Shown: in pieces, positions 21,797-35,645 of the stretch
Numbering within the stretch: the first letter of the stretch is position 1
Layout: every line of letters starts with the position of its first letter
Source of the DNA: Acidobacteriota bacterium
GTDB taxonomy: Bacteria; Acidobacteriota; Terriglobia; UBA7540
Reading direction: 5' to 3'
DNA length: 38,034 nt
NCBI GenBank assembly: GCA_902812415.1
Contig: CADDZJ010000034.1
Coordinates: forward strand, 1 to 38,034
The notes under the pieces: model-generated
Seen by the model: the letters and a program-made list of their open reading frames with translations, nothing else
The model's database searches: none
Told to the model about the DNA's origin: nothing
Translations under genes and position numbers: made by a program

Positions 21797-22915
21797 TTAG
21801 GCCACTCGAAAGCGCGCGACGGCTTGTTCATCCAAGTCAATCCCCAGCCCCGGTTCCTGCGGCATTTCAAGGCAACCATTCTTGGCGCGGATTTTCTGGC
21901 GAGTCAGAAATTCCCGGAGATTGGTGTTTTCCTGGGCGACAAACTCGGCGATGAGCGCATTGGGAACTGAATTGAGCCAATGGAGAGCCGCGCAGACATT
22001 GATGTAAGTGGTGAATCCGTGATTGGCGACGGGCAAGCCGTGATCGGCGGCCAAAGCGGCGATCTTCATGGCTTCGGTAAAACCTCCGCATCGCGTCAGG
22101 TCAACCTGAACCACGTCGATGTTTCCCTCTTCAATCAGGCGTCGGAAAGTATTCCGCGCGCTTTCCTCCTCGCCTGCGGCAATGCGGACCGGCGTGGCCT
22201 GGCTCAGCTTCCGATAGCCTTCATAATCGTCGGGCGAGAGCGGCTCTTCGAGCCAGAAGATCCCGTATTCCGAAAAAGCCTGAGCCCGCTGAATCGCGGT
22301 CTTGGCGTCCCAGGGCAAACCGGCGTCCACCAGCAGATCAATCTCTTTCCCCAGGCCCTCTCGGGCTTTGGCAACAAGGGCGACATCCTGGTTGGCGTCC
22401 TGGCCCATCGGCCCCCAGCCAAACTTGACCGCTGTAAAGCCCTGGCCGGCGATGCGGCGAGCGATCTCTGCCGTCTCTGCCGGCGTATTTCCAAACAAGA
22501 CGCTGGCGTAGCAACGGATGCTCTTTCGGAATCCTCCTCCCAGAAGCTTCCACACCGGCATCCTGAGTTTCTTTCCCTTGATGTCCCACAAGGCCATATC
22601 AATGCCGCTCATCGCGTGCAGGCCAATTCCAAAGCGACCGGCATAAATGTTGGCGCGGTACATCTTGTGCCAGAGATATTCGGTTTCAAAAGGGTCTTCG
22701 CCGATCAGAAGATGCTTTAAGCCTGAGGAAGTCGTATGAGAATAAGGCCCCAGGATCATTCCCCGAACCGCCAGGGGAGCGGAATCCACCTCTCCGATTC
22801 CCGTGATGCCCTCATCGGTGTGGACCTTCACGATCAAGGCGTCCTGTCCGCTGTCGCACTGCTCTTTGACTTCCGGCAAACTGACGTAAATCGCTTCAAC
22901 ATCCGTAATTTTCAT
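21797..22915 (-). CDS. enolase-superfamily protein (mandelate racemase/muconate lactonizing type)
   Basis: This 372-residue protein has an N-terminal capping domain and a TIM barrel. Residues fitting the mandelate-racemase subgroup are K164 in AVKFGWGP, metal ligands D197 (LLVDAG), E223 (FWLEEPL) and E249 (AAGEEESAR), and the D272/H299 acid-base pair (VQVDLT and VANHG). Most such proteins dehydrate sugar acids; racemases also occur. The second lysine of the usual KxK motif is replaced by G. The start at 22915 is chosen from the MKITDVEAIYVSLPE N-terminus; the longer frame to 23044 is rejected. It is the last gene of the carbohydrate locus. Confidence 0.9.
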   Translation of the reverse strand: MKITDVEAIYVSLPEVKEQCDSGQDALIVKVHTDEGITGIGEVDSAPLAVRGMILGPYSHTTSSGLKHLLIGEDPFETEYLWHKMYRANIYAGRFGIGLHAMSGIDMALWDIKGKKLRMPVWKLLGGGFRKSIRCYASVLFGNTPAETAEIARRIAGQGFTAVKFGWGPMGQDANQDVALVAKAREGLGKEIDLLVDAGLPWDAKTAIQRAQAFSEYGIFWLEEPLSPDDYEGYRKLSQATPVRIAAGEEESARNTFRRLIEEGNIDVVQVDLTRCGGFTEAMKIAALAADHGLPVANHGFTTYINVCAALHWLNSVPNALIAEFVAQENTNLREFLTRQKIRAKNGCLEMPQEPGLGIDLDEQAVARFRVA

Positions 22916-23089
22916 GACAGGTTCTCGTTCCCTCCAGCGCGCCACATCGGATGGAAAGGCGGCGCCGATTCGAGTACGCATTCCGCAATTCTTCAGCGTC
23001 GGCGGAAGCGGAGAAACCGCAAGGTTATGCCCTAAGCTTCGCACCGCATACTGTACCCTGATGATGCTGACTCAACGCCTGCCTGACGG

Positions 23090-23797
23090 CTAAGGCAACA
23101 ACCTTTCAGAAGTGGCCGGAAATGTCACCGAGCGGCGGAAACACTCGGCAAAGCGAACGCCGGCCTGGAGCCCGCGAAAGCCCGAGCAGATTTCCATGAA
23201 CTCGATGTAGCTCATATTGTACTGGTCTTTCAGCCATTCGGCTTGACTTGCGTGGGCGGCCAGCATCCTCCTCTTGGTTTCGATGGTCGCAGTGATATCG
23301 ACGTATTCCTCGGGAGAGAAGTTGATCCCGGCGATGGTGTCCATGAAATACAGGGCCGGGATTTTCTCGCACGGTGGATGCTTGGTCTTGATGTTGGGAA
23401 CCGTCGTCATGACGCGAATATTCCAGAGGATTTGCCCGGTGGTCAGATGATCCGGGTGATAGTCGTGCAAGGGATCGTGTGTGATGACCACGTCCGGGCG
23501 CGTCTCGCGGATAAGATCAATATAACGATGTCGCGTTGATTCATTGTCATAGAGGAATTCATCCGGGTAACCCAGCCAGTGAAGCTCGGCTCCGATGATT
23601 GCGGCGGAGGCCCGCGCCTCCCGCTCGCGGATGCGCGCAATTTCCTCCTTGGGCAGCCGAGGCGATCCCACTTCGCCGTTGGTGGAAATCGCCATAAAGA
23701 CGCGATCCCCCCGAGCCGCATATTTGGCCAGAGAACCCGCGCACAGGATTTCAAGATCGTCAGGATGGGCGCCAACGGCCAGGATGCGCATGTTCAT
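23090..23797 (-). CDS. PIG-L family zinc deacetylase
   Basis: This 235-residue protein carries the metal-binding AHPDDLE motif (H11, D13, D14) and the second motif HPDH (residues 114-117). Family members remove acetyl groups from N-acetylglucosamine derivatives or related small molecules (LmbE/MshB/BshB type). The gene starts 23 bp from the stop of the DMT transporter and is co-directional with it. This suggests the imported molecule may be N-acetylated, although that is inference. Confidence 0.92.
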   Translation of the reverse strand: MNMRILAVGAHPDDLEILCAGSLAKYAARGDRVFMAISTNGEVGSPRLPKEEIARIREREARASAAIIGAELHWLGYPDEFLYDNESTRHRYIDLIRETRPDVVITHDPLHDYHPDHLTTGQILWNIRVMTTVPNIKTKHPPCEKIPALYFMDTIAGINFSPEEYVDITATIETKRRMLAAHASQAEWLKDQYNMSYIEFMEICSGFRGLQAGVRFAECFRRSVTFPATSERLLP

Positions 23798-23820
23798 TGC
23801 GTAAATCTCTCGTTAAAACC

Positions 23821-24690
23821 TCAGCCTATCGATAAAAGAACCAAGGCTATCACTGCCATGCCCACGCCGGCAATGGTGCGGGCGTAAATCTTTTGCTTCA
23901 GAACCCAGATCCCCAGTAGCACACCGACCGGGATCACCAGACCATTCGTAATAGGGTACACCACAATTCCTGCTTGAGAGCTGACACGGGCAACCGCAGC
24001 GAGCGCCGCAATCGTCAGCATGATGCCAGACCAGTGAGTTCCAGCGGCGGCCATGCTGATCGCGATCAGCCCGCGATCCCGGTTGAGAGTTCGACCTTCG
24101 AGAAGGCGGTAGGCCAGCACCAGCAGGAAGCCGATGCCGTAAAGGTAGGTTGTGAAAAGCGCTGAGAAGCCCTCCGACACGAATCGCAACAGGATGGGCA
24201 GCCACGCGTTAAAGAAGAAAGCCAGGGCGATATACTTCATCCATCCGAAAGACCGCTCTTTCGCGGTCGTCCCTTGAAAGCCTCCTCCGATCACCACAAT
24301 GGAGAGAACGGTGAAGACGATCGCAATGGCTTTGCTGGCCGTGAACGTATCGTGAAACCAAAGAATAGAAAACAGAATCGGAAGGATCATCGACAGGTTC
24401 ACGATGGTCCAGTTGGCGCCGATATCCTTCTCGCGGCACGCCATCAGGTAACTGCCCAGAGAACCCACGAAGGTTGCTGCGCCCAGAATGCCGAGAACTA
24501 ATAAGCGCGAATCAAAGACGAGCGAGCAGGAAGAAAGCGATATCACCAGGCCAATCACGAAGCCGGTGAATTGCATATAGAGGACAACATCCCAAATCTG
24601 ATAACGGCGCTTTCCAGCGGCCTCGTAGGCGACGCCCAACAATCCGTAAACTGTCGCCGCCAATAAAGCGAGCAGAATGCCCTGGGCCAT
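23821..24690 (-). CDS. DMT/EamA-type membrane transporter
   Basis: This 289-residue protein has ten predicted membrane helices in two five-helix halves, the drug/metabolite transporter arrangement. The second half contains SSQAGIVVYPITNGLVIPVG. Substrates in the family range from nucleotide sugars to amino acids. It lies between the Tat-exported glycosidase-like gene and the deacetylase, and is the only inner-membrane transporter in the locus. It is therefore the best candidate for import of the released sugar. Confidence 0.87.
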   Translation of the reverse strand: MAQGILLALLAATVYGLLGVAYEAAGKRRYQIWDVVLYMQFTGFVIGLVISLSSCSLVFDSRLLVLGILGAATFVGSLGSYLMACREKDIGANWTIVNLSMILPILFSILWFHDTFTASKAIAIVFTVLSIVVIGGGFQGTTAKERSFGWMKYIALAFFFNAWLPILLRFVSEGFSALFTTYLYGIGFLLVLAYRLLEGRTLNRDRGLIAISMAAAGTHWSGIMLTIAALAAVARVSSQAGIVVYPITNGLVIPVGVLLGIWVLKQKIYARTIAGVGMAVIALVLLSIG

Positions 24691-24769
24691 GCTCAGATGA
24701 TGTCCTTTCGCGAGGGGATTGGATCAGTATTGTGGCGGCTTTTGGCCTTGTCGCTCGCGCGCGATCGCA

Positions 24770-27700
24770 TCACTCATAATGGGCCGTCACGTTCAGTTCC
24801 TTTGTCGCCGCCGGCAGCTTGATCCACTCCCTGGCCGGGTCGAATTCCTTCCAGGCGTGGCCGTTCACCGTAACTTTCTTGAGGGCGGCCTGCCTGGGAT
24901 GCCTGAAGCGAAGATAGAGATTCGCCGGTGGGTTACGCCTGGGAGGATTGACTGTGGCCTCGATTCTGCCCTGACTCACGAGGGATCGAATGTGATAGGA
25001 GAGTTCGCCGAAATGGCTGGGCGCCTGGCTGACAGCGATCTGCTTGCCATCCTCCAACCACCTCCGAGGTGTGCCGCGAGCCAGAAAGAGATCGCTGCCG
25101 ATTTCCATGAGGAGCATGAATCTGAGTTGATGGAAGAACCATCCCTCCTCGTGCGTCTTGTTGGGCTGCCCGCCGCCGAAATCGAGTTCCTCCTGAAAGG
25201 TCAAGGTTTGGGGATCTGAGATAGCCGCCAGAGTGTTAAAGAAGCCGCGCAGGAAGTTTGGAATCTGATCCCGCAGCAGGTAAGCCTCCTGATAATGGCA
25301 GTAGTAAGGCTGAAGCTTTCCGAAGCCGCCCATATTGAACCAGTCCGTGGCCAGCGTGTCGAGATCGACGCGCGAGGGTAGCGGCGTGAACATGAAGAAG
25401 TAGTCTTCCAGATAATTCAGCATGGAAGTCACTTCCGGACCATTCGGATCAACGACTTCACTCTTGAGGAGGTGGAAGGGGCCAATGGTTACGTCGTAGG
25501 CATAACCGTGACGGCGATCCGGATCGACCGAGTCTTTGACTTCGCTGCTGAAACCCCGCAGCCCAAGGTAAGGAGGAACAGACGGAACGGACGTGTTATC
25601 GCGCAGCCGCGTCAGCGGGGATACAACGATGCTTTCCTTGAGCGCTCTCTGAATCGCGCGAAGATAATCCTCCGCTTCGGCGGCAATCCGCGCAGCGTTT
25701 TCGGGATCGACATCTCGCAGAGCCTGGGCGGATTTCTTGAGGCCGAGATAGAAGTAGCCGTTCAGCATGAAGCTGTATTCCCAGTCTCTCGGATCGGCGA
25801 CGCAGCCTGCGGGCGCCAGGCCATAGGAGAGCGGCTTCGTGCCATCCGGCAGCAATTTCCTGGTCCGGTTGCGTTCGCGGAGGATAAAATCGCAGCCCGC
25901 AACGATATGCGGAGCCGCCATGCGCAGCCAGCCCTGATCGCGGGTGTAGAAGTAGTGCTCTGCCAGCGTCCAGAGGATCGCCCCCTGATCAATTGTATAG
26001 ATGGGCCAGAAGTGATAAAAACCGCCTTCTTTGGAGACGTAATCTCCCGCCGGCATCGAATCTCCCTGCGTCGAAAGCCACGCCTTCAGGCAATCCTGCA
26101 CGCGCTGATCGAGGCCGCGCATTTCCAGAGCCTGCATCACCGGGCTGCTTTCGCTTCCAATGCTTCCGTAAAGCAGCATGGCCGTGTTCGGATAGTACTC
26201 TCCGCGCTTTCCATCCTTGGTAAGCGCCAGCAGGAAATGGTGCAAGCTTGCGTTGTAGACGTTCTGCAAATGAGGATCGGGGATGCTGATCTGCATGCCC
26301 TCGGCCAGCCGGTTCTTCCAATACTGCGCGGTTGAATCGTGAAGCTTTTGATAATCGAGAGCCATGAATTCCGATGCGCCAGTTGATGCCGGCAGTGGCT
26401 GGCCGGGGATTATGGTTTGAATGACGTGCTCTTCGCCGGGACCTAAAAGCACGGAGTAACGCGCGGCCTCCACCGCAGGCTCCAGGAAAAGAGCGCCTCG
26501 GCTCTGGGTGTTGACGCAACAAACGATATACTTCTCATCGTTTTCGGTCACGAGGATTGTATTTCCCTCCAGGCTCGCGGCCCAGGCGTTTTGGACGCCG
26601 GCTGGTATCGGACCGTACCCAAGATTCCCGCCGGCGGGTTTCCAGGGCTTGATGTAATAGCTCGCCAGGTTGGGGATTGTCGAGTTATTTCGAATTCTCA
26701 GCCGGGAAATCATCAAGGCGGGCTCATTGCCCATCAGTCTGGATTCGTCAAGCGGCTCTGAGGAATGCTGAAGAACGCCGTAATCTGCGCGTTCGAAAGC
26801 AAGCTCATTCTCGCTCCAGCTTGTGATGATGATGGGCAGCCAGCCCTCCTCCAGTCGTTGCTGCTTCTGCCTTTCCGTTGCAAACAAACCGGCAGTGTTC
26901 GCCGCAGCGCTGTGGAACAGCACGGGCTGCTCCGCCGTGTCGAAGTAAACCGCAAACTGAGGCGTCATGGGATGACCAAAACTGGGATCGTTGCTTCCGA
27001 CCACCAGGTGTCCATCCGGGGCAATTCCAAACTTGTGATTGTTGGCCTCCGCGCCCACGAACGAAAGCGTAACGCGCCGGGCGTGAATGTGGCGGTAGGC
27101 GTTCTCAATGCTCTGCTCGGGATGATGGGAAACCGCATCGATGATTCGGGATTTCCCCTGATTCTGCCGGCGATAAGACGCTCGATCGAGAGGGAGTGAA
27201 TTCTTCCGGATATAAACTCCGAAGTCGGGCGCATCGATGGGTTGCTCTTCCAACACTTCTCCGGGCAGAAATGAGAACTCGCAGGCCTTCGTGCGGAGAG
27301 TTAGAATCGAGCGGTCCACATCCATGCCGTACGCATAGAGCACCGTGGCTTCAATTCCGGCAATCTTCCCGCCGCCCGCAGAAGAAGACCAGGAAAACCG
27401 GCCAGTAAGTTGCGTTGAGCCCACGGGTCTGATTTCCAAAACTTCGCTGTTATACCTTTCGAGCTTCCCATCGTGCGCTCTCTCCGGCCCGCTGTGGCCC
27501 CACTCAATGCGAATATCTCCGCGTTTCCACTTTGAAGGCCCGTACACCGCCAGACGCTCAATGGCGACCTGCTTCTGATTCTGGAACCGCAGACGAAGCT
27601 TGCAGGTCCTTCGACGAGGGAAGGCGAAGGTCCAGACTGGCCCCTCGATCTGCGCTGAAACGCCCTCGATTTCGGTTTCGTCCAGGCTCTGCCAGGCCCC

Positions 27701-28108
27701 CTGCCGGGCGGTGATGCCTGTCCAGTATTCCAATAACTGCTTTCCGGGGGCAGGAGCGCTCTCCGCAGAAACGTATTGAATGACCACTCGTTCGATGGTG
27801 CGAAACTCCGGCCACTCGACGCCGAGATCGGCTTCGCCTTCTTTCCCTGGCAGGTTGGCAATCCGTAACGCGGATGAGGAGCCTGGGTGCACGATAGAAT
27901 GCGCCCGCAAAAATGGAGTTGCATCAGGATTCAACCAGGATTTGAGCTCGCCATAGCTCGCAAGATTCACCGGCTGGCCCGCCTGCAAAGCGTCCAGCCG
28001 GGAAATTCCGGTGAATGGGACGCGGGGCTCGCCGGCCTGAAGCCATCCTGCGGATTCCGATAACAGGGCAACGCCTGCGCAGCTTGATAGAAACTTGCGG
28101 CGATTCAT
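24770..28108 (-). CDS. large Tat-exported (alpha/alpha)6-barrel glycosidase-like protein
   Basis: This 1,112-residue protein starts with a twin-arginine signal (NRRKFLSS, then CAGVALLSESAGWLQAG). The first ~190 residues after the signal look like a galactose-binding-type beta-sandwich. A long beta-rich part follows to about 590. From about 600 to 1,010 there is a helical barrel of the six-hairpin glycosidase type, with YYPNTAMLLYGSIGSESSPV, HFWPIYTIDQGAILWTLAEH and a WEYSFMLNGYFYLG segment. A small beta domain ends it. I cannot place it in a numbered GH family or name the catalytic acids. ATG 28108 has GGGGGA upstream. It is likely periplasmic. Confidence 0.75.
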   Translation of the reverse strand: MNRRKFLSSCAGVALLSESAGWLQAGEPRVPFTGISRLDALQAGQPVNLASYGELKSWLNPDATPFLRAHSIVHPGSSSALRIANLPGKEGEADLGVEWPEFRTIERVVIQYVSAESAPAPGKQLLEYWTGITARQGAWQSLDETEIEGVSAQIEGPVWTFAFPRRRTCKLRLRFQNQKQVAIERLAVYGPSKWKRGDIRIEWGHSGPERAHDGKLERYNSEVLEIRPVGSTQLTGRFSWSSSAGGGKIAGIEATVLYAYGMDVDRSILTLRTKACEFSFLPGEVLEEQPIDAPDFGVYIRKNSLPLDRASYRRQNQGKSRIIDAVSHHPEQSIENAYRHIHARRVTLSFVGAEANNHKFGIAPDGHLVVGSNDPSFGHPMTPQFAVYFDTAEQPVLFHSAAANTAGLFATERQKQQRLEEGWLPIIITSWSENELAFERADYGVLQHSSEPLDESRLMGNEPALMISRLRIRNNSTIPNLASYYIKPWKPAGGNLGYGPIPAGVQNAWAASLEGNTILVTENDEKYIVCCVNTQSRGALFLEPAVEAARYSVLLGPGEEHVIQTIIPGQPLPASTGASEFMALDYQKLHDSTAQYWKNRLAEGMQISIPDPHLQNVYNASLHHFLLALTKDGKRGEYYPNTAMLLYGSIGSESSPVMQALEMRGLDQRVQDCLKAWLSTQGDSMPAGDYVSKEGGFYHFWPIYTIDQGAILWTLAEHYFYTRDQGWLRMAAPHIVAGCDFILRERNRTRKLLPDGTKPLSYGLAPAGCVADPRDWEYSFMLNGYFYLGLKKSAQALRDVDPENAARIAAEAEDYLRAIQRALKESIVVSPLTRLRDNTSVPSVPPYLGLRGFSSEVKDSVDPDRRHGYAYDVTIGPFHLLKSEVVDPNGPEVTSMLNYLEDYFFMFTPLPSRVDLDTLATDWFNMGGFGKLQPYYCHYQEAYLLRDQIPNFLRGFFNTLAAISDPQTLTFQEELDFGGGQPNKTHEEGWFFHQLRFMLLMEIGSDLFLARGTPRRWLEDGKQIAVSQAPSHFGELSYHIRSLVSQGRIEATVNPPRRNPPANLYLRFRHPRQAALKKVTVNGHAWKEFDPAREWIKLPAATKELNVTAHYE

Positions 28109-28321
28109 GTTTTGATTTTCCCCCAAATCCCTGGCGCACTTACTCCCGGAGCTTTGCTGGGTGCGCGAGGTGTTTTTGAGATATGCCCGAGGCGTGAGGT
28201 CGGTCAGCCTTCGCCACGAGCTTTTGCCCCCGGTGGCGCGAGGGATCGTCGAGGGACCCGGCGACGCGGCATGAATCCGATGCCTGGCAAGTCCGCCTTT
28301 GACACGCCAAGACCTGGATAT

Positions 28322-29713
28322 TTACTGGACGGCCGCCCGCGTCAGTAGCAACCGGTATTGAGCGTTGCGTTCCCCCTTTTTGATCCTATTGTGAGCTTCA
28401 AATTGAGCCTGGGCTAATTGCTTTTCACCCATGCGCTCGTAAATCTGCGCGAGCACGTAATGGGCTCTCTCGTGCTCCGGATCGAGACGAATCGTCTCCT
28501 TCAGTTCGGCAATGGCCTTGGGATCGTTATGTTCCGCTTCATAGGCCTTGCCGAGCACGAAATGATCGCGGCTGGAGCGCGGCTCCAGGGCAACCGCGCG
28601 TTCGAGCGCCGGAATTGCGGATGTCAGCAGATATCGGTCCTGAACGCTCTCGTTGAGCAGCCCTGCGCCCACCAGATACCATCCGGTCGGATTTGATGAA
28701 TCGATTGCCTGAAGCCTCTTGCCAAGCTCAACCATGGCCTTTCCGCGGCCGGCGTCTTCGTAACACTCTCCGAGCGCGCGGTAGGCAGGCTCAAATTTCG
28801 GGTTTGAGGCAATCAACGCTTCCAACAAGCGAGTCGCTTCCTCGCGTCGATTTTCCAGAATGTAACTTACCGCTAAACCGAATTGCACCTGGGGTGAATG
28901 GGGAAGCCGCTTCGCAGCCACCTGAAACATTTCCAGCGCTTCGTGGTAGGCGCGGTAATGGGCCAGGAACTCGCCAACATCCATCAGGAAATCCGTGTTG
29001 TCCGGATCAAGTTGCAGCGCCTTCTGAAGATGCTCGAGGGCCGGTTTGGGCTGATTCAACTTGAATTCCGCATACCCCAGCAAATTGTTCCAGTAAGCCG
29101 AATTTTCCAGCGGGCGTTGCGTTGCAAGGAGAAGGCTTTGCGCTTTCACGTATTGCCCCTGGTTGATTAGATCCGCCGCCTGGCTCGCCAACGATCCCCC
29201 CACGCTGAGCCACGCCTTGCGAATTTGCGGATCTTCCGGCGCCAGGCGCTCGGCGCGGTCGAGCGCCTGGAAAGCCTCTTCCGGTCTGCCAAGCTTCAGA
29301 AGCGCGGAGGCCTGATTGAACCACACCGATGGAACCTTGGAATCCAGACTGATTGACCGCTTGAACGAGGCTAAAGCCTTCGAGGGCTGGCCCAGAGTCA
29401 GATAGTTAGCGCCAAGATTATTCCAGCCTTCCCAGACTCCGGGTCTGAGCCTGACGATCCGCTCAAAGTAAGGTGTGGCCCGCTCCGGATGGCCGGACTG
29501 CGCTTCGCAAACGCCAGCGGCATTGAGCGCTCGAACGTCCGTGGAATTCATCACCTTCGCAGCTTTAGGGCTTCCGAGCGCCGCCGCGCAATTCCCAGGT
29601 TGCTCTGCCGCAGCTCCTTGAACCAAGCGCGGACCTTGAACCTGCGCATAGGCCGTACACGTTAAGATTCCGCATAAAAGGAGCCTGCTGAGAGCGTTCC
29701 GTTGAAACGCCAT
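28322..29713 (-). CDS. exported TPR-repeat protein
   Basis: This 463-residue protein has a signal peptide (residues 1-23, cleavage after TCTAYA). About eight to ten tetratricopeptide repeats follow, with the usual W/LG/Y/A/P pattern, for example YWNNLLGYAEFKLNQPKPAL and FVLGKAYEAEHNDPKAIAEL. It starts 6 bp after the receptor stop and is almost certainly cotranscribed. No SusD is present, so it may be the receptor's periplasmic or outer-membrane partner for substrate capture; this is inference. Confidence 0.86.
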   Translation of the reverse strand: MAFQRNALSRLLLCGILTCTAYAQVQGPRLVQGAAAEQPGNCAAALGSPKAAKVMNSTDVRALNAAGVCEAQSGHPERATPYFERIVRLRPGVWEGWNNLGANYLTLGQPSKALASFKRSISLDSKVPSVWFNQASALLKLGRPEEAFQALDRAERLAPEDPQIRKAWLSVGGSLASQAADLINQGQYVKAQSLLLATQRPLENSAYWNNLLGYAEFKLNQPKPALEHLQKALQLDPDNTDFLMDVGEFLAHYRAYHEALEMFQVAAKRLPHSPQVQFGLAVSYILENRREEATRLLEALIASNPKFEPAYRALGECYEDAGRGKAMVELGKRLQAIDSSNPTGWYLVGAGLLNESVQDRYLLTSAIPALERAVALEPRSSRDHFVLGKAYEAEHNDPKAIAELKETIRLDPEHERAHYVLAQIYERMGEKQLAQAQFEAHNRIKKGERNAQYRLLLTRAAVQ

Positions 29714-29719
29714 TGGAAT

Positions 29720-32700
29720 TCAGAAAATGAACTTCGCCGCCAATTGCAGGATCCGGCCAGGCGAAGACCCGAAAACTCTTCCGTACCCCGGATCGTTCAC
29801 GGTTGCATCGGGAAGAGCAAACGAGGTTTGGTTAAATACATTGAATCCTTCTAGGCGGATTTGCAATCTCCTTTGCTCGGAAAATATCGGGAACTCCTTA
29901 TAAAGCCCCAGATCGAAGTCGCGGTAGCCGTCGCCCCTCAGGATGTTGCGGCCTGCATCGCCCCGGCGGTAAACCGGCGGACCGGGAGGCGGCGCAAAGC
30001 AGGCGGTATTAAACCAGCGCTGAGGGGTGGGGTTCGAGAGATGAGGATCGCATCCTGCCACCACATCGGCCCACGTACTCGTCCCGGTATTCGAGGGATC
30101 GCCGAAGGCCGCCGGAGTGAAAGGAAATCCTGAATGGAGCGTGATAATCGGCGCCAGAGTCCAACCACCCAGCAAGGCATGGGTGACGCCTTTGGAACCT
30201 TGGAAGACAGGCAGGTTGTAGACGGCGCCCAGCGTAAAGTTGAGTGGAAGGTCGAAGTCCGAAACTCCTCGATTCAGATTCGGGTGGTATGGGTCGTAAT
30301 AGCCATCCGCATCGGTGCTGTCATGATCGATGCTTTTTGACCACGTGAATGCCGACAGAAGAGAAAGGCCGTGAACGAAGCGCCGCTCGACTTTAAATTG
30401 CATCGAGTGGTAAATCGATGAAGCGGATTGCTCGTTCCATTGGATGTAGCCGAAATCAGGATAAGGACGCCGGGGCTGAACCTCACCCGGGCCCGGCAGC
30501 GGCACATTAATTCCTCTGACCCCCTGGAGGTCTGTTCCCTTGCTCCCCACATAGCCAAGCTCGGCGGAAAAATGGCCCGGCAATTCCCTTTGCACCGAGA
30601 AGTTCCATTCTTGCGCATAGCCAAAGTCCGTCGCGCTGGGATCGTGCGCAAAAAGGGTGGCGAATTGGCTGAATGCCGAGCCTTTGGGAAGGAAGTTCTG
30701 AATCGTCCGAGTTGGAATCACCGGATCGTTCAAGATGCCGGACTCCCGTATGAGAAACGGCGCTGACTCAAATTCGCTCTCCCGGTTTCCGTCAAGCTGA
30801 ACGTAGTAGATGCCGTAGCCGCCTCGAATCACGGTCCTATCTGTGGCGCGATAGGCCAAGCCGAATCGCGGCGCAAGGTGATTGTAGCCCACCGCCCGCA
30901 AATAAGTGGGATTGATCCCAACCTGGCTGGCGTAAACGGAAAACTGCTGATAGAAGGGCCAGGAAAGATTCACGGAGCTGATGGGGTTGGGGATAGCGAC
31001 CGATTGCGGGGTGGGGACCACGATGGCTCCCTGGCCGTTTCGGGCCGCGGGATCGAAATTCGCAAAATGACCGTACTTTTCCGCCGTGGGCCAGTTGATC
31101 TCATAGCGAACGCCCAGAGTCAAGGTGAGTTTCTGCGTCGCCTTCCAGTCATCGTTGAAGTACATCCATTGGTTTTTCAGGCGCTGATAGTACCAGCCCG
31201 GCGGAACGTAGCGGCTGGCTGAGAAAGGAATTCCCAGAAAGTAGTCGGCAATGCCCGCGCCGGTGTTTCCCGAGCTTTCGGGATTCGTCGTGTAAGTGCC
31301 GGTGAAGCTGAACGTGCCGCTGCCTTGACCGCTGGTGGTCAAATTCTGTTGCCAGTCTCGAAACGTCTCCCCCATCTTAAACGTGTGGCGCCCGCGAACC
31401 ATCGTATAGTTGGCTGTGTACTCAAAGTTGTTCGAGATGTAATTCAGCAGAAAACCCTGGGGCAGGCCGGTGTATCCGGCAATCGACATCACCGGATAAC
31501 TGGGATATACGCTCGAAATGCCCGGCCCAAATCCCTGGATGCCCAGGACCTGATCGTAATCCTGGCTTAAGCCAAGATTAGGGGTATTAAACAGAAGGTT
31601 CGCCCGGCTGGCGGCAAACCGCGCCTCGAGAAGGTTTGTGGGGTTAATCACGTGAGTCCAATCTAAAACTCCGTTGTAACTATAAGGAAGCTTGGGATTC
31701 GCGCCCGGATCAACAGGGTCCAGGCCGTGATAGGGGCCGAAACTTCCATCGTTCTCGCGCGTAAACGAGAACCGGCCGGTCAAGGTATCATTCTGGCCGA
31801 TCCGATGATCAATCTTCGTCGTGGTCTGATTGGAGGAAGTGGGAACGCTGAGGAGGCGCTGCAAATTCCCCGTGACCCCCGGAAGGTTGGGAAGCGGAAT
31901 CCAGTTCGGGGCCAGGAAAAACTTGGAGACTGGATTGATCCGGCTCAATGGAATCTGATTGCCCGCAAAGGGGTCGCGGAGATAACTTCCGGGCTTGTTG
32001 GGGTCAGGCCGGGTGGTGGCCGGGTCGTACAATTGAGTCGGCAACTCGGAAAAATCTCCCGTGCGCATTTGCGCCGTAGGGACGGTGGCGAAAAAGGTCT
32101 CGCCTTGCCGCAGCCGCAACCCTTCGTAAGCGAAGAAGAAGAACGTGTGATCTTTCCCGTTGTAGACTTTGGGAACCCACACCGGCCCACCCACCGTAAA
32201 TCCGAATTGATTGCGCTTCAAGGGCTCGACCGATGGGGCGAAGAAGCTTCTCGAATCAAAAGCGTCGTTGCGAAGAAACTCGTAGGCGTCGCCGTGGAGT
32301 TGATTGGTGCCCGACTTGATTGAAACATTCACCACGCTGCTGCCGTACCCGAATTGGGCGGACATGTTGGAAGTCTGCACTTTGAATTCCTGGATCTCGT
32401 CAATGGAAGGCCGCCAGAGAATCCCTCGTCCGTTTTGGTTTGAATCATCCGCGCCGCCCACCGTGAACAGCACCTGCCCGGGCCGTCCTCCGTTTGAGAC
32501 ATTCATGGTTTCATTCGTGGTCAGCGCGCTTGCGCCGGCGTTCAATCCCGCGCTCGTTTGAAAATTCGTGGTTGAAACCGTTCCGGGCGAGAGCAACTGG
32601 AGCTGCTGAAAATCGCGGCCGTTCAAAGGGAGTTGAGCCACTTCGGTCGATCCGACCACCTGGCCGACGCTGGCGTTTTCCGTATTCAGCATGGGGGGCG

Positions 32701-33085
32701 CGGCGCTGACGCTGACGGTTTGCGTGGCCAGGCCCACCTTCATCTGCACGTCCTGGCGCAGGGCGGCATTCACTTCCAGCTTGATGGCCGTGACTTTTGC
32801 AGTCAGGAAGCCTTGCGCGGCGACCTCCAGATCATACGTTCCCACGGGAAGATCGGAAAAGGTGTAATTGCCGGTCGAGTCCGTCTTCATCTCTCTCATG
32901 AAGTTCGTGCCGACATTTCGGACCGTGATCGTCGCTCCCGGCACGGCGGCGCCGCTCGGATCGGTGATCAGCCCTGTGATGACGCCCACCGAGCTGCCCT
33001 GGCTGAATGCCGTCGCCGGATAGAGAACGACGGCCAATAAACCGACGGCCAGCAAAGCTTCCATTCGCATTCTGAAGCGCAACAT
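29720..33085 (-). CDS. Oar-like TonB-dependent receptor with carboxypeptidase-regulatory domain
   Basis: This 1,121-residue protein has a signal peptide (residues 1-28), then a carboxypeptidase-regulatory-like beta-sandwich (about 33-115: TGLITDPSGAAVPGATITVR, then LPVGTYDLEV). A plug domain (about 120-270: NGRDFQQLQLLSPG, then VNVSIKSGTNQLHGDAYEFL) and a beta-barrel follow. It ends in Phe (LAAKFIF), as outer-membrane barrels do. The ribosome-binding site GGAGGTGAG is close to consensus. Such receptors are numerous in Acidobacteria and import oligosaccharides or other large solutes. It is the third gene of the locus; the ligand is not known. Confidence 0.93.
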   Translation of the reverse strand: MLRFRMRMEALLAVGLLAVVLYPATAFSQGSSVGVITGLITDPSGAAVPGATITVRNVGTNFMREMKTDSTGNYTFSDLPVGTYDLEVAAQGFLTAKVTAIKLEVNAALRQDVQMKVGLATQTVSVSAAPPMLNTENASVGQVVGSTEVAQLPLNGRDFQQLQLLSPGTVSTTNFQTSAGLNAGASALTTNETMNVSNGGRPGQVLFTVGGADDSNQNGRGILWRPSIDEIQEFKVQTSNMSAQFGYGSSVVNVSIKSGTNQLHGDAYEFLRNDAFDSRSFFAPSVEPLKRNQFGFTVGGPVWVPKVYNGKDHTFFFFAYEGLRLRQGETFFATVPTAQMRTGDFSELPTQLYDPATTRPDPNKPGSYLRDPFAGNQIPLSRINPVSKFFLAPNWIPLPNLPGVTGNLQRLLSVPTSSNQTTTKIDHRIGQNDTLTGRFSFTRENDGSFGPYHGLDPVDPGANPKLPYSYNGVLDWTHVINPTNLLEARFAASRANLLFNTPNLGLSQDYDQVLGIQGFGPGISSVYPSYPVMSIAGYTGLPQGFLLNYISNNFEYTANYTMVRGRHTFKMGETFRDWQQNLTTSGQGSGTFSFTGTYTTNPESSGNTGAGIADYFLGIPFSASRYVPPGWYYQRLKNQWMYFNDDWKATQKLTLTLGVRYEINWPTAEKYGHFANFDPAARNGQGAIVVPTPQSVAIPNPISSVNLSWPFYQQFSVYASQVGINPTYLRAVGYNHLAPRFGLAYRATDRTVIRGGYGIYYVQLDGNRESEFESAPFLIRESGILNDPVIPTRTIQNFLPKGSAFSQFATLFAHDPSATDFGYAQEWNFSVQRELPGHFSAELGYVGSKGTDLQGVRGINVPLPGPGEVQPRRPYPDFGYIQWNEQSASSIYHSMQFKVERRFVHGLSLLSAFTWSKSIDHDSTDADGYYDPYHPNLNRGVSDFDLPLNFTLGAVYNLPVFQGSKGVTHALLGGWTLAPIITLHSGFPFTPAAFGDPSNTGTSTWADVVAGCDPHLSNPTPQRWFNTACFAPPPGPPVYRRGDAGRNILRGDGYRDFDLGLYKEFPIFSEQRRLQIRLEGFNVFNQTSFALPDATVNDPGYGRVFGSSPGRILQLAAKFIF

Positions 33086-33155: not shown

Positions 33156-34178
33156 TCACAGTTGCAAGACGACCTTTAAGGCTCCGTCCTTCTGATGACG
33201 CACGTAGTCATAGGCCTTGGCAGTCTCCTCAAGAGGAAAGGTGTGGGTGATCAGCCGCTTCAGGTTCAAGCGGCCGGTCTCCACCAACGCGATGACTTCA
33301 TCCCAGTATTTCCGGTCGGAAAGAGAACCGTAGACGACGAGATCCTTCAGGATGATGGGTACGATTGAAACCTGCGGAAGAGGATCAGGATACACGCCGT
33401 AGAGCACCACCCTGCCTCCCGGAGCCACCGCTTCGAGCGCCTGTCGAAAGGATTCCGCAGTGCCTGCGCAGTCCATCACCAGATCCACTCCCCGTCCTTG
33501 AGTTTCCTGTTGAATGACCTGAGCCAGGTCCTCTTTGTGAATATGAATGGTCCGATCGACACCAAGCGATTTTCCCAGTTCAAGCCGCTTTCCCGAGTCG
33601 CCTGAAAGGAGCACGCAGCGCGCGCCCAAGATCCGCGCCACCTGACTTGCCACCAGCCCCGCAGGTCCCGGACCTTCAATGAGCACGATATCGCTTGAGC
33701 GAATGCCCGGCTTTCTCAGGGCGGCATAGACTTCCATATCCAGGATGGCGGCCTCTTCCATCGAAATGGAGTCAGCAATTGGATGAATGTTCTCTTCCGG
33801 CAGGACCAGCCATTCCTGGCATCCCCCATCGCGGGTGAAGCCCAATTCATAGCCTGTGACGCAGAATTGACGGCTTCCTGCGCGACAGAAATAGCATTGC
33901 CCGCAGCCAACGACCGAATCGCATGTGACGCGGCTGCCGATACGAGCGCGCGTCACCTGAGAACCCACTTGCTCGACGATACCCGCAATCTCGTGACCCA
34001 AAACCCGCGGCGGCTGCACCTGGGGAAATCGCCCATCGAGGATGTGAATATCGGTCCGGCAAATGCCTACCGCCTTGACCCGTATCAGGACTTCGGTCGG
34101 GCCGAGCGAACTCGCGTCCGGAGCAGGCGCTTCCACTAACTCCACCCGGCCATCGCCAGACCATATTGATCGTTTCAT
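33156..34178 (-). CDS. zinc-dependent alcohol/polyol dehydrogenase
   Basis: This 340-residue medium-chain dehydrogenase has catalytic-zinc ligands C40 (in GICRTDIH) and H62/E63 (LGHEIAG). The structural-zinc cysteines are C92, C95, C98 and C106 (CGQCYFC, then C). The nucleotide-binding GPGPAGLVASQVA also follows. It probably oxidises a sugar alcohol or sugar with NAD(P)+. The ATG at 34178 gives the usual N-terminus MKRSIWSGDG; a TTG at 34223 would add 15 residues. The 5' leader from the predicted promoter is about 80 nt. It is the first gene of the operon-like run. Confidence 0.9.
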   Translation of the reverse strand: MKRSIWSGDGRVELVEAPAPDASSLGPTEVLIRVKAVGICRTDIHILDGRFPQVQPPRVLGHEIAGIVEQVGSQVTRARIGSRVTCDSVVGCGQCYFCRAGSRQFCVTGYELGFTRDGGCQEWLVLPEENIHPIADSISMEEAAILDMEVYAALRKPGIRSSDIVLIEGPGPAGLVASQVARILGARCVLLSGDSGKRLELGKSLGVDRTIHIHKEDLAQVIQQETQGRGVDLVMDCAGTAESFRQALEAVAPGGRVVLYGVYPDPLPQVSIVPIILKDLVVYGSLSDRKYWDEVIALVETGRLNLKRLITHTFPLEETAKAYDYVRHQKDGALKVVLQL

Positions 34179-34264
34179 AAAAAAGCGAGCATTTAAGTTG
34201 AAATTCTCAAAACGGGCCTGCAAATTCCAATCAGCGAACGATAAAAGCCATTCGTAGCTGATTA

Positions 34265-34293
34265 TCTATAACTCAGGCCGTACGGCCTGTCAA
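34265..34293 (-). promoter_or_regulatory. sigma70-type promoter of the dehydrogenase-receptor operon
   Basis: Read on the minus strand, TTGACA (34293-34288) is followed by a 17-bp spacer and TATAGA (34270-34265), with more AT just downstream. The -35 box is a perfect match to consensus. It is positioned to give a leader of about 80 nt before ATG 34178. A palindrome fills the spacer. Confidence 0.7.
34274..34289. promoter_or_regulatory. 16-bp palindromic operator candidate
   Basis: CAGGCCGTACGGCCTG is a perfect 16-bp palindrome. It spans most of the spacer and the last two bases of the -35 box, so a bound protein would block RNA polymerase. The adjacent ROK repressor is the natural candidate. 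I did not find a second copy upstream of the other genes in the locus. Operator function is inference. Confidence 0.6.
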
Positions 34294-34417
34294 CCACTTT
34301 TTTATAAAATGTAGTTAAGTAGGCATAGAAAACAAACAGTCCTGGCCATTTCCATTGATTACAGCGTCTTGGATCGTAAATCGGAAAACCTTTGCGTCGA
34401 AGGGGAGCGTTCCAGCC

Positions 34418-34431
34418 GGTCTGATCAGACC
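34418..34431. other. 14-bp palindrome at the ROK stop codon
   Basis: GGTCTGATCAGACC is a perfect palindrome overlapping the stop codon of the ROK gene (TGA, 34427-34425). It could form a GGTCT-GATC-AGACC hairpin at the end of the mRNA or bind a protein. No T-run follows. Confidence 0.5.
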
Positions 34432-35645
34432 TTCCGTCGGACCGGCAACGTGCGCTGAAGGACCTTCTCTGAGACCAGGAGCGTCGAGCCGCGCGCCCAG
34501 TCAATTTCACTTAACTCTGAAAGCTCAATCGACACCTGGTTAGCGGGATTGGGCATCGCCCGTTCCTGGACCAGGCGCTGGATCGAGGGCAGCAGCCATC
34601 GCCCAATCCCCTGAATCAATCCGCCACCCAGGATAATCAATTCCGGATTCAACAGATTGATGAGGCTCGTCACGCCTGTGGCGACGTGCAGGCTGGTTTC
34701 AGAAAGCAGCCCCAGGGAGAATCGGTCGTTGGCTTCAGCCGCCCGGGCGATCGAGTCCAGATTCAACTGTCCGCCATTCTCGCGGGCAATGCGATACAAC
34801 TGGCTGCTTAATCCGGTTGCCAGCGCTTCTTCGGCCCGGTGGATAAGGGTTGAAGCGGAGACCATCACTTCCAGGCAGCCGCGATTGCCACACGAGCACA
34901 GCGGCCCGCGCTCGTCAATCGTGGTATGACCGAATTCCCCCGCGAAGCCTCCCGTACCCGTGTAGAGTTGCCCGTTCAGGAAAAGCGCGGCGCCGGTTCC
35001 CGCTCCCAAGGCAAGATAAATGAATTCTTTCGCGTTCTGCGCTTTGCCAAAGCGCTTTTCAGCCAGGGCCATCGTCCTGGGCGTGTCATCCACTTCGACC
35101 AGAGTTTTAAAGCTCCGCTCAACGATGCTCTTGACGGGCACGTCCGTCCAGGAAGGGACTTTGGGCCATGACAATGTAATTCCCTTTTCGCGATCCAGGA
35201 CGCCGGCGATTCCGATGCCGATACCTGAGAGTTTTTCAGGCTTCACACGGGCCTGCCGGAGAAGCTCCTGAATAAGGCTCAGCATATGTTGCAGAGCCAC
35301 TTCCGGCCCTTTGTCCACCTGGCTCTTGTCGATCCGGTGAGCCAGGACGTCGCCGCTCAGGTTGGTGATCACAGCGCGGAGATTGATCGTACCCATGTGG
35401 ATGCCCACCAGCCGCCCGATATCGGGATTGATGGCGAGCAACGTGGGAGGCCGACCGCCGGAGGAGACTCCAGCGCCCACCTCAACGACCAGTCCCTCCT
35501 TGAGAAGGCGTTCGGCCAGCTTCGAGACCAGGAAGGTGCTGTAGCCGGCGTAATCCGCAAGCTGGCTCCGTGAAATGCGCCCGTGGGTATAAATCAGCGA
35601 GAGAAGCCGAAGCAGGTGTGAGCGCAGCGACTTGATCTTAGGCAT
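34425..35645 (-). CDS. ROK-family transcriptional repressor (NagC/XylR type)
   Basis: This 406-residue protein has an N-terminal winged helix-turn-helix (about residues 8-60: ISRSQLADYAGYSTFLVSKL). A ROK sugar-kinase-like sensor domain follows. It carries the zinc motif CSCGNRGCLE and GHTTID upstream of it, and the nucleotide-type GAGTGAALF. Such proteins release DNA when a sugar binds. It lies directly upstream of, and co-directional with, the locus whose promoter contains a palindrome, so it is the likely regulator. The sugar inducer is unknown. Confidence 0.93.
   Translation of the reverse strand: MPKIKSLRSHLLRLLSLIYTHGRISRSQLADYAGYSTFLVSKLAERLLKEGLVVEVGAGVSSGGRPPTLLAINPDIGRLVGIHMGTINLRAVITNLSGDVLAHRIDKSQVDKGPEVALQHMLSLIQELLRQARVKPEKLSGIGIGIAGVLDREKGITLSWPKVPSWTDVPVKSIVERSFKTLVEVDDTPRTMALAEKRFGKAQNAKEFIYLALGAGTGAALFLNGQLYTGTGGFAGEFGHTTIDERGPLCSCGNRGCLEVMVSASTLIHRAEEALATGLSSQLYRIARENGGQLNLDSIARAAEANDRFSLGLLSETSLHVATGVTSLINLLNPELIILGGGLIQGIGRWLLPSIQRLVQERAMPNPANQVSIELSELSEIDWARGSTLLVSEKVLQRTLPVRRKV

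Follow-up and report, generated by a model that had tools for sequence, protein, structure and literature searches.

A probable promoter with a perfect palindrome in its spacer, downstream of a ROK regulator gene in a Terriglobia bacterium

Introduction

In classical repressor occlusion, for example in TetR-type systems, operators lie in the spacer between the -35 and -10 hexamers. The locus described here resembles those systems in having a compact palindrome placed exactly in a promoter spacer, but differs from them in that the palindrome has no identified partner protein and no conservation.

The neighbouring gene encodes a ROK-family regulator. The XylR site of this family reads GTTT-N7-AAAC (PMC9104551), and the RokB site before novH reads TTTGTTC-N11-GAACAAA (PMC4856308). 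A similar T-rich/A-rich organisation has been ascribed to the sites of RokA, CysR, Mlc, NagC, RafR, and the Thermotogae ROK proteins, but five RokB sites in the genome follow another layout, so ROK sites can vary (PMC4856308).

We analysed a stretch of 38,034 nucleotides (the window) from an Acidobacteriota bacterium of the class Terriglobia (contig CADDZJ010000034.1). The original prediction had read, near the end of a ROK gene, a promoter whose spacer holds an operator of the ROK protein, possibly of a new type.

Results

The ROK gene and the genes after the promoter

The ROK protein combines a ROK domain containing the CxCGxxGC motif (CSCGNRGC, aligned with the solved relatives Lmo0178 and Mlc) with an N-terminal helix-turn-helix, as expected for the family. 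A weak MarR-type HTH match in Pfam and matches to the NagC and Mlc models all fell below the respective cut-offs. The ROK gene is located upstream and has the same orientation, so that the promoter points away from it and toward the zinc dehydrogenase gene, and the genes do not form a divergent pair. The positions of all features are listed in Table 1.

Table 1. Features of the ROK-dehydrogenase locus, in window coordinates
Feature	Position	Strand	Remarks
Zinc-dependent dehydrogenase, promoter-proximal gene	33156..34178	-	Pfam ADH_N, ADH_zinc_N; 75% identical in G008
Probable remainder of the transcription unit	21797..33085	-	Putative extent, from gene orientation and order
-10 hexamer TATAGA	34265..34270	-	TATAAG in G008; TATA kept, same 17-bp spacing
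Spacer, 17 bp	34287-34271	-	Between TTGACA and TATAGA
Perfect 16-bp palindrome CAGGCCGTACGGCCTG	34274..34289	.	Candidate operator; overlaps last 2 bases of TTGACA
-35 hexamer TTGACA	34288..34293	-	6/6 kept in G008
Upstream element ATAAAAAAGTG (A-tract and GTG)	34295..34305	-	11/11 kept in G008
ROK-family regulator, 406 aa, N-terminal helix-turn-helix	34425..35645	-	Pfam ROK, 5.6e-53

The genes that probably complete the transcription unit encode an Oar-like outer membrane protein, a TPR protein, a 1112-aa protein, an EamA transporter, a PIG-L deacetylase, and an enolase-superfamily enzyme. The 1112-aa protein of this putative sugar operon (24773-28108, minus strand) has no Pfam or NCBIfam match. 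In the orthologous locus of genome G008, the run consists of the dehydrogenase, a sugar-aminating-type aminotransferase, an Oar-like protein, a GH3-like glycosidase (assigned by eye), a transporter, and a galactonate-dehydratase-like enzyme. The locus can reasonably be read as an operon for sugar oxidation with its own ROK regulator nearby. Regulation of the dehydrogenase operon by the ROK protein, and the site used for it, are inferences.

Promoter elements are conserved in the orthologous locus

Read on the minus strand, the sequence is ATAAAAAAGTGG-TTGACA-GGCCGTACGGCCTGAGT-TATAGA. The hexamers, the 17-bp spacer, and the perfect 16-bp palindrome of the original prediction were all verified letter by letter, and the ROK gene, said to end about 130 bp away, has a stop codon ending at 34425, a measured 135 bp from the palindrome. 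The spacing falls within the 16-18 bp of sigma-70-type promoters, both here and in G008. A sigma-70 consensus scan nevertheless called no promoter at 34265-34293, because the final T of TATAAT is absent from TATAGA, as it is from the TATAAG of G008. We argue for promoter function from conservation and not from a consensus match. An alternative -10 hexamer, GATAAT (34266-34261), was set aside, as it would require a 21-bp spacer.

Searches for orthologs of the ROK protein in 399 genomes of the class and of the dehydrogenase in 299 yielded a single orthologous pair, in G008 (GTDB contig JASHOS010000039.1, Terriglobia bacterium), with proteins 74-75% identical to those in the window. Of two GTDB contig scans for orthologs, the first confirmed none and the second returned the G008 contig alone. 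The next dehydrogenase (genome G068, 54%) is not accompanied by a ROK gene within the 4 kb visible, and its short upstream gap contains no matching promoter.

When the two promoters were aligned on TTGACA, ATAAAAAAGTG-N-TTGACA-N17-TATA was conserved at 21/21 named positions: 11/11 in the upstream element, 6/6 in the -35 hexamer, and 4/4 in TATA (4/6 over the whole -10 hexamer). In the spacer, 7/17 positions are identical, compared with 31/79 in the flanks (background 39%). This retention of the promoter elements around a spacer that stays at background supports the account that we prefer (see Discussion). Judged by its conserved letters, the segment from 34265 to 34305 on the minus strand is very probably a real promoter. 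It shares with sigma-70-type promoters that carry an upstream A-tract the A-tract itself, TTGACA, the 17-bp spacing, and a TATA-type -10 hexamer, and these features are kept in an ortholog and recur in relatives. It is unlike them in that the -10 hexamer has no final T in either genome and in that GTG-N between the A-tract and the -35 hexamer is constant.

The upstream element recurs with unrelated spacers

A search of 61 genomes gave 13 occurrences of the pattern AAAAAGTGNTTGACA and 0 of a reversed control pattern. Five of these copies, four in the window's own genome and one in genome G004, are part of a single repeated cassette, which brings the number of independent occurrences closer to nine. 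The copies precede the dehydrogenase gene, Oar-like genes and, by eye, also Rrf2-like and BlaI-like regulator genes. Across relatives the element is followed by unrelated spacers, and no other spacer among these copies has a dyad exceeding 5 pairs. The AAAAAGTGNTTGACA module has the appearance of a promoter element in general use rather than of a site for ROK proteins.

The repeated cassette is an observation in its own right. Its near-identical copies (about 125-218 bp, 97-100% identity; loci L068-L071 on own-genome contigs C85, C145, C152, and C219, and L084 in G004) contain AAAAAAGTGCTTGACA and a poly-G run in the -35/-10 spacer that differs in length between copies. They precede different Oar-like outer membrane protein genes, and every copy lies near a contig end. 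The cassette also occurs, 98% identical, in a second genus. These features suggest a phase-variable or moving promoter cassette, although a contig binning error is possible.

The palindrome is remarkable for its position

A perfect 16-bp palindrome is unremarkable by itself. The window holds five; dinucleotide shuffles average 0.9, and at least one is present in 60% of them. In a genomic background of 438 kb (the window plus 400 kb of stretches from its own genome), there are 17 perfect palindromes of at least 16 bp, 12 of them in coding sequence. Their density is slightly higher in intergenic DNA (5 in 64 kb) than within genes (12 in 374 kb), which is the pattern expected of operators. The position of CAGGCCGTACGGCCTG is remarkable: among 25 promoter-like sites in the 438 kb, it alone has a perfect spacer dyad of more than 8 bp, where we estimate that about 0.02 such cases would be expected by chance (25 sites x 16 centres x 17/438,034), a figure to be treated with caution because it was calculated post hoc on a site chosen as striking.

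Further perfect intergenic palindromes of 16-18 bp in the same genome, exemplified by GTCTCATACGTATGAGAC and TTCAAAGCGCTTTGAA, are possible operators (L091 7297, L091 15038, L095 9468, and L103 6354). The segment around the ROK stop codon (34415-34446) contains GGTCTGATCAGACC, a perfect palindrome of 14 bp (34418-34431), together with a 10-bp inverted repeat; its fold is no better than those of shuffles.

Occlusion of RNA polymerase by some lineage-specific repressor is possible. If the palindrome were the operator of another, unlinked dimeric regulator, its exact spacer position and rarity would be explained and its loss in G008 would be easier to accept. This reading is nonetheless unlikely, as the genome holds no regulon-like set of sites: near matches to CAGGCCGTACGGCCTG show no enrichment (34, against 48 with the reversed control), and the top two fall within or overlap open reading frames.

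The original prediction assigned the palindrome to the adjacent ROK protein, which would block RNA polymerase between the -35 and -10 hexamers. The ROK gene is directly upstream and is still beside the dehydrogenase gene in G008, and a palindrome exactly in the spacer is a rare coincidence. The helix-turn-helix segments of the two ROK proteins differ very little (GYSTFLVSKLAERLLKEGLV and GYSNFLISKLTDRLLKEGLV), from which one would expect both proteins to use the same operator. However, the counterpart of the palindrome in G008, CAACCCGTTTCGCTTC, retains only 3 of the 8 dyad pairs where 2 are expected at random, although recognition helix and promoter are retained; in this one comparison, a thin test, the palindrome is not conserved as a ROK operator would be, an outcome that the original prediction had named as speaking against it. 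A second copy of CAGGCCGTACGGCCTG was sought before the ROK gene and is absent, and no spaced ROK-type dyad common to the two ROK-dehydrogenase gaps was found.

The form of the palindrome also differs from that of most described ROK sites, as had been predicted for NagC and XylR. It shares with the operators of XylR, RokB, NagC, and Mlc a dyad symmetry by a promoter and the adjacency of a ROK gene and sugar genes. In those sites a gap separates a T-rich from an A-rich arm, whereas CAGGCCGTACGGCCTG is GC-rich, gapless, and not conserved; no compact GC-rich palindrome is among the ROK sites described in PMC9104551 and PMC4856308. Assignment to the adjacent ROK protein is thus quite improbable. 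With the palindrome lost in G008 and no family of like genomic sites, the proposed new operator type is unsupported, and a Terriglobia ROK repressor using a compact gapless GC-rich 16-bp spacer palindrome, with an operator that shifted between genera while the recognition helix hardly did, is more doubtful still; if true, this would represent a new kind of ROK operator, positioned precisely within the spacer of the promoter under its control.

Finally, an RNA hairpin (CAGGCC-GUAC-GGCCUG) that ends or protects the 3' end of the ROK transcript is predicted to fold stably (-14.9 kcal/mol, z -3.2) and comes after the ROK stop codon on the strand of that gene, but is highly improbable: it is lost in G008, lies between conserved promoter hexamers, and is absent from the terminator scan, and we rejected a terminator here for want of a T-run after the palindrome on the ROK strand.

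Discussion

We lean toward an account in which a real promoter contains a spacer palindrome that is not a conserved operator of the adjacent ROK protein. The A-tract with GTG, TTGACA, 17 bp, and the TATA-type -10 hexamer would form a Terriglobia promoter with a transcript start predicted near 34258, about 80 bp ahead of the dehydrogenase ATG (34178). It would drive the dehydrogenase gene and the subsequent sugar-catabolic genes, and the palindrome may be incidental sequence or a young lineage-specific site. Counting against this account are its dependence on one ortholog, the rarity of a long perfect spacer dyad, the intergenic excess of palindromes, and the failure to find an alternative ROK site common to both gaps. 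From the sequence comparison, the palindrome is probably not the binding site of the adjacent ROK repressor. The promoter half of the original prediction therefore stands, its hexamers, spacing, and upstream A-tract being conserved in one ortholog, but the operator half, judged on that one comparison, does not.

One ortholog was enough to take away the main support for the ROK link, which illustrates how easily perfect promoter palindromes are over-read. To our knowledge, promoters in the acidobacterial phylum are little mapped. An evidence-based promoter is now available for an acidobacterial sugar operon, together with a recurrent upstream and -35 module, AAAAAGTGCTTGACA, in Acidobacteriota.
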